DNA from: Robiginitomaculum sp.
GTDB lineage: Bacteria; Pseudomonadota; Alphaproteobacteria; Caulobacterales; Maricaulaceae
Direction of reading: 5' to 3'
Assembly: GCA_016765135.1 (NCBI GenBank)
Contig: JAESQN010000031.1
Span: 124,001-188,000, forward strand
DNA: 64,000 nt
Shown here: piece by piece, positions 38,007 through 38,643 of the stretch
Layout: every line of letters starts with the position of its first letter
How positions within the stretch are numbered: the first letter of the stretch is position 1
Program-made: the position numbers and the translations under genes
Notes under the pieces: generated by a model
Database searches by the model: none
Told to the model about the DNA's origin: nothing
The model's input: the letters and a program-made list of their open reading frames with translations, nothing else

Positions 38007-38036
38007 CTAAAAACGGCATTTAAATGCCGTTTTTAG
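38007..38036. promoter_or_regulatory. Perfect 30-bp palindrome between divergent operons
   Basis: Fifteen bases (CTAAAAACGGCATTT) are followed at once by their exact complement. The structure looks like a loopless bidirectional terminator, with A and T runs on both sides of a GC stem. It lies about 80 bp before fhs and 66 bp before the original DUF1289 start, where a terminator would be odd unless it blocks read-through in both directions or attenuates a longer leader. An operator role is also possible. Confidence 0.55.
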
Positions 38037-38137
38037 ACATAATCTATTGAATTATGGCTTATATACTGCTCTAAACAAATCAGTAAAATCAGGATCACTT
38101 CATGGATGATGCCCTAAAATCAGAAGAATTGCCATTA

Positions 38138-38401
38138 GAGCCTTTTCGGTGTATTTTGAACCATTTGACTGGTTTCTCCCGTTCGCTGGCTAGGCGGGTC
38201 ACGTGCAGTGGCCTTACTGGCCACAATCGGGGCCCAACGACGTCCAGCGTGCGGGAGAAACCAGCCTTCGGTGGGTCATATCTGCACGTCGGGTGCGTTG
38301 CGTCCCTTGTCCAATGCTATGGCATTGCCCTGCGGGCCCGCGCCTGCCCGAGCGAGCAGATATGACCCATCAAATTGATTCAAAATACACCGAAAAGGCT
38401 C
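38138..38401. mobile_element. MITE-like element, 264 bp, TA target duplication, inserted in a DUF1289 gene
   Basis: The ends are inverted repeats of at least 23 bp (GAGCCTTTTCGGTG... at 38138, its complement ending at 38401), flanked by TA on both sides (38136-38137 and 38402-38403), the target duplication of IS630/Tc1-mariner elements. The GC-rich interior folds into two further hairpins: 38169-38181 with 38252-38264, and 38272-38285 with 38356-38369. No transposase is encoded. Removing the element plus one TA restores an uninterrupted frame from ATG 38102 into the DUF1289 gene, which shows the insertion site directly. Confidence 0.88.
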
Positions 38402-38643
38402 TAGAACCTGAAGATAGCCCGTGCCAGCTTATTTGTTCAATCGATACAGACAGTAATATGTGTTTTGGGTGTGGGCGAACGCCAGAAGAAATCGCTAACT
38501 GGCCATTGCGCCCTGATGAGGACCGCAAGCGCATATTGTCTGAATTGCCGGCGCGTATGCCGCCTCTTCGCATTAAACTTAAAGAGCGCAGGTCGCGTCG
38601 GCGTGTCAATAAACGCAGCCGCCTAAACGCTGCTAAGACCTGA
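38362..38643 (+). CDS. DUF1289 protein with its 5' end rebuilt by the inserted element
   Basis: The core CQLICSIDTDSNMCFGCGRT followed by PEEIANWPLRPDE is the DUF1289 cysteine motif, a short probable metal-binding family of unknown role. The basic C-terminus (RRSRRRVNKRSR) is typical. The native start was probably ATG 38102 (MDDALKSEELPLE, joining EPEDSPCQ), 91 residues in all. The element now separates that start from the body in a different frame. The best surviving start is ATG 38362, which lies inside the element, so the first 13 or so residues (MTHQIDSKYTEKA) are element-encoded. Whether it is still translated is unknown. It is 2 bp upstream of the regulator gene. Confidence 0.7.
   Translation: MTHQIDSKYTEKALEPEDSPCQLICSIDTDSNMCFGCGRTPEEIANWPLRPDEDRKRILSELPARMPPLRIKLKERRSRRRVNKRSRLNAAKT

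Follow-up and report, generated by a model that had tools for sequence, protein, structure and literature searches.

What becomes of a gene when a mobile element without genes of its own is inserted directly behind its start codon, and what kind of element is it? This question is raised by a locus in a stretch of 64,000 nucleotides (the window) of Robiginitomaculum sp. (contig JAESQN010000031.1, positions 124,001 to 188,000), in which a 264-bp element interrupts a DUF1289 gene after codon 11 and probably now supplies the start codon of this gene. The element belongs to a widespread, apparently undescribed superfamily, which keeps one pair of folded hairpins while carrying many unrelated transposon ends. 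Compared genomes are designated by G numbers (G000 is the genome of the window), their contigs by C numbers and individual loci by L numbers.

The interrupted DUF1289 gene

The window was read directly and searched for inverted repeats, open reading frames and domains. The following features were identified (window positions):

38102-38137, + strand: native 5′ end of the DUF1289 gene (ATG plus codons to the TA target), now separated from the rest
38136-38137: left TA of the target-site duplication
38402-38403: right TA of the target-site duplication
38138-38401: 264-bp non-autonomous element (the insertion adds 266 bp with one TA)
38136-38166, + strand: left terminal inverted repeat (TAGAGCCTTTTCGGTGTATTTTG...), 31 nt, 94% complementary to the right one
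38373-38403, − strand: right terminal inverted repeat
38163-38267, + strand: hairpin unit, arm A (covariance-model match, 128 bits with model R1)
38269-38375, − strand: hairpin unit, arm B, an inverted, diverged copy of arm A (41.6 bits with model R1, 77.8 bits with model R2)
38190-38195, + strand: conserved internal-loop side of arm A, CTAGGC (TAGGC invariant in the alignment of 16 copies)
38236-38243, + strand: other side of the internal loop, AACGACGT (AAC and ACGT invariant in 16 copies)
38102-38365, + strand: reading frame from the native ATG through the element to the TGA at 38363-38365
38362-38643, + strand: DUF1289 reading frame from the element-supplied ATG (MTHQIDSKYTEKALEPEDSPCQ..., 93 aa), whose ATG overlaps the upstream TGA (ATGA)

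Two internal inverted repeats (21 nt, 90%; 22 nt, 86%) lie between the ends. The predicted fold is Y-shaped with an RNA minimum free energy of −160 kcal/mol (z −13.7, none of 200 shuffled sequences was as low) and a z of −13.9 when folded as DNA. The downstream reading frame was confirmed as DUF1289 (PF06945, 55 bits against a cut-off of 27), and ATG 38362 is in the DUF1289 frame. A perfect 15-bp palindrome with A/T runs at 38007-38036, between the formate-THF ligase gene and DUF1289, is probably a terminator.

The preliminary description had reported a TA-flanked 264-bp element with at least 23-bp inverted ends, whose removal with one TA restores the DUF1289 gene, and this observation is correct. 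One small correction concerns the rebuilt junction, which reads MDDALKSEELPLEPEDSPCQ, one E fewer than given there. Lack of an empty site in sister strains had been put forward as a result that would overturn the insertion. Uninterrupted orthologues were found in three congeners (G006, MENDLPLEPEDSPCQ; G009; G011), each followed by the same GlxA/AraC-type gene as in the window, and the other copies that were to be searched for also exist. Its interpretation as an exact MITE insertion with an element-supplied ATG and a nested-palindrome interior is likewise supported, although replacement of the native N-terminus in the protein is an inference. The preliminary description could not reveal that the palindromic interior is a conserved module found far outside the genus, nor that a start-replacing insertion of the same kind occurred in a sister species.

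The genome of the window carries three copies: the one described here, a second on C4 (86%) and a third on C21. Of 61 related genomes, 7 had matches at E ≤ 0.001, all within the genus. In G007 the ends of contigs C13, C19, C20, C21, C25, C33, C37 and C47 fall inside copies, so copy number is probably under-counted and the repeats seem to break this assembly. In G006 one copy sits in an IS3-type orfA, and on C37 of the same genome (L094, 470-1519) a solo terminal repeat forms the C-terminal codons (...QNTPETL, then stop) of an unrelated gene. In G002 a bare terminal-repeat palindrome with only 5 bases between its arms and no core was found (L099, C13, 1602-1640), as well as a copy whose arm B interior is inverted relative to other copies, as if the hairpin had been flipped between its own stem repeats (L018, C9, 1383-1649).

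Apparent start-codon replacement in two genes

In the sister species G002 an 88%-identical copy interrupts RNase J after codon 4 (ATGAAAAACAAAC|TAGAGCC...GGCTCTA|GACGAGCTG), in the same phase and orientation as in the DUF1289 gene. This RNase J gene is the single match in that genome, and the site is empty in G000 and G003. In both genes the native frame enters as xTA GAG and runs to ...CPSEQI, where the stop codon overlaps the element's ATG (ATGA) in the downstream frame. The products would begin MTHQIDSKYTEKALEPED... and MTHQIDSKYTGKALDELVF.... Thus, start-codon replacement has apparently happened at least twice; translation itself was not tested. Shared phase and orientation may simply reflect which insertions survive. 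A third genic copy (G000, C4; 264 bp net) is in frame and open throughout into a signal-peptide protein with a Cu_amine_oxidN1 domain; its native start (GTG) was assigned by inspection only.

The open entry frame, which is found through most copies, and the in-frame C4 copy raise the possibility that the element is a protein-coding palindrome like the Rickettsia elements, selected for its peptide. This is very unlikely. Substitutions within the element show no codon-position pattern (0.18/0.24/0.23, permutation p 0.16), so there is no evidence that the open frame is a coding sequence in its own right. Furthermore, the peptide has no Pfam match and most copies are not in genes. Rickettsia palindromic elements (PMC10969869, PMC2229807) also insert into genes and can be read through, while the two clearest genic cases observed here replace a gene's start rather than add an internal peptide.

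Alternatively, the insertion may simply have inactivated DUF1289, leaving a decaying pseudogene. Indeed, the 266-bp insertion shifts the frame, no obvious Shine-Dalgarno sequence precedes ATG 38362, and by inspection this ATG lies inside a predicted stem. An in-frame GTG at 38203 could also serve as start. As no expression or proteome data exist here, the gene may be silent. Nevertheless we consider a pseudogene unlikely, since the DUF1289 domain still scores well above its cut-off, the reading frame is open to its normal end, and RNase J of G002, open over hundreds of codons, carries the same arrangement.

Our favoured explanation, to which we assign a probability of about 0.8, is a non-autonomous transposon (MITE) with IS630-type TA|GAGC ends, whose interior is an inverted dimer of one conserved hairpin. 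In this view the element was probably moved in trans by an IS630-family transposase and inserted at a TA in codon 12, and because it entered near the 5′ end the gene stayed usable. The most likely route would be that ribosomes starting at the native ATG read 87 codons, mostly element, stop at TGA 38363 and re-initiate at the overlapping ATG 38362, giving a DUF1289 protein of 93 aa with an element-encoded N-terminus, against 91 aa natively. The analysis shows the insertion, the empty sites, the independent RNase J case, the superfamily, the covariation and the diversity of terminal ends, while mobilisation by IS630, termination-reinitiation (the simplest mechanism) and a role of the conserved core in the element's own spread rather than for the host are deduced.

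A conserved hairpin dimer with unrelated ends

Sixteen full copies from Robiginitomaculum relatives and Anderseniella, which belongs to a different order, were aligned, yielding 104 pairs of which 89.8% are paired. Changes on both sides were observed in 58 pairs, against 35.4 in shuffled alignments (0/500) and 12-22 when the partner was slid. The CTAGGC/AACGACGT internal loop of arm A is nearly invariant and largely unpaired. A covariance model of arm A recovers arm B on the opposite strand right beside it, with 65.7 and 63.7 bits for locus L161 and 128 and 41.6 bits for the window. The element is therefore an inverted dimer of one hairpin. Across 41 arms, 28 of 29 pairs show compensatory change and only short loop motifs are constant.

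The first model hit 11 of 385 sampled Alphaproteobacteria, a broader model 45 of 385 in 36 genera and 36 of 398 Pseudomonadota. Since E-values are rough, the hits were checked by an independent feature: terminal inverted repeats, which are not part of the model, were found around 38 of 43 hits and at 0 of 172 control positions. The architecture spans 261-311 bp, mostly 261-296 bp, and 43 of 58 delimited copies have TA at both ends according to the snapping rule applied. Outside Alphaproteobacteria, four genomes (G587, G612, G782, G634) carry the outer repeat plus inner arms; weaker hits there are not claimed. L196 and L197 (G753), also outside Alphaproteobacteria, are possible single-hairpin forms of about 140-170 bp with their own inverted ends, with weak model scores. 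Clustering of 22 nt of the ends gave 24 clusters, some of them artefacts of trimming, but at least six are plainly unrelated: TAGAGC, TACCAA, TAGGAGCCTG, TAGTACCCCC, TAGCCCGC and TAGGGTCCG.

A search for an IS630-like transposase with the same GAGCC ends had been suggested as a check. G007 contains a 1074-bp IS630 element with HTH_Tnp_IS630 and DDE_3 domains and TAGAGCGTTTCGCG ends, and G286, G067 and G164 have DDE_3 elements with TAGAGC ends. However, only the outer TAGAGC is shared with the copy in the window; inner repeats differ from each other and from the MITEs, and no transposase with the full terminal repeat was found, which leaves the link to IS630 undecided on sequence grounds. IS630 mobilisation of the TAGAGC class is likely but not shown, as transposition was not assayed, and partners of the other end types are unknown. 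Pattern searches of the genus for an autonomous parent with the full terminal repeat gave MITE copies and solo ends only. IS5-type DUF4096 transposases in the genus are not flanked by paired TAGAGC ends, and a 4.2-kb pair of TAGAGC ends on G006 C37 was not an autonomous transposon, since ordinary genes lie between them. Searches of viral contigs (exact pattern) and plasmids (blastn) gave no match.

The strong covariation and the near-invariant loop would also fit a primarily functional RNA, a regulator or an RNase III/E processing target, that travels in MITEs and whose stems are maintained by host benefit. In support, each arm read in its own orientation shows somewhat more G-U than A-C mispairs on pairs predicted from both strands (16:5 and 15:7), a weak hint because the sequences are related. 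We regard this reading as doubtful, as the arms are inverted copies, so that one transcript carries them in opposite sense, and both strands of the whole element fold about equally well. In addition, neither the window region nor twelve divergent copies matched an Rfam family, and copies lie in varied places (within genes, in an IS3 orfA, between genes). Paired stems could persist through palindrome correction, but this would be expected to repair the internal loop too, which instead stays unpaired and constant. This points to recognition of a folded strand, although this is inferred. The function of the core is unknown; without proof, we favour a role in the element's own propagation (DNA hairpin) over an RNA function. 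More tentatively, a hairpin-dimer core spread over Pseudomonadota may have been carried by many unrelated transposon ends because the core itself is recognised, as folded DNA or RNA with the AGGC/AACG loop, by a conserved factor that helps any MITE carrying it. It would then be a parasitic module independent of any one transposase.

Relation to known elements and meaning

The element is short, has inverted ends and a target duplication, lacks a transposase gene and is repeated at unrelated sites which are empty in relatives, and thus it fulfils the definition of a MITE. Like IS630/Tc1-mariner-derived MITEs (Correia/NEMIS, ERIC, RUP type) it is small, with a TA target and outermost ends, though not inner repeats, like a resident IS630 group, but its interior is a conserved inverted hairpin dimer shared across many genera and across unrelated terminal repeats. 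REP/REPIN palindromes of the GTAG and CGTC families (PMC3733652) are also inverted pairs of imperfect hairpins, the CGTC types mostly in Alphaproteobacteria. These REP units measure 20-40 bp, while the arms studied here have about 105 nt and lie inside terminal repeats of roughly 25-40 nt with TA duplications, which does not agree with a REPIN; RAYT genes were not searched for. Caulobacter CIR repeats (described in PMC2229807) have a two-arm structure in Alphaproteobacteria with TA at the termini; they are about 110 bp long, without terminal inverted repeat, GANTC-associated and not found in genes. Coxiella QMITE1 is reported with a conserved core and variable ends, and QMITE2, of about 190 bp with 7-9 bp repeats at the target, with partial relatives in Bradyrhizobium and Rhodopseudomonas (PMC5896051). 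Sequences were compared with neither the CIR repeats nor the QMITEs, and a relation to the latter is not excluded. While gene-fused MITEs (PMC10969869, PMC2229807), REP dimers and a conserved core with variable ends are already known, no description of this core or of its spread over unrelated ends was found in the open-licence literature searched.

MITEs are usually seen as deletion derivatives of one insertion sequence with expendable interiors. Here the interior is the conserved part and the ends vary, over at least 36 alphaproteobacterial genera, which makes it testable what MITE interiors do and how a passenger changes transposase. The two apparent replacements of a gene's start, one of them in the only RNase J found in that genome, also show a concrete way in which such elements can rewrite N-termini without obviously killing the gene.
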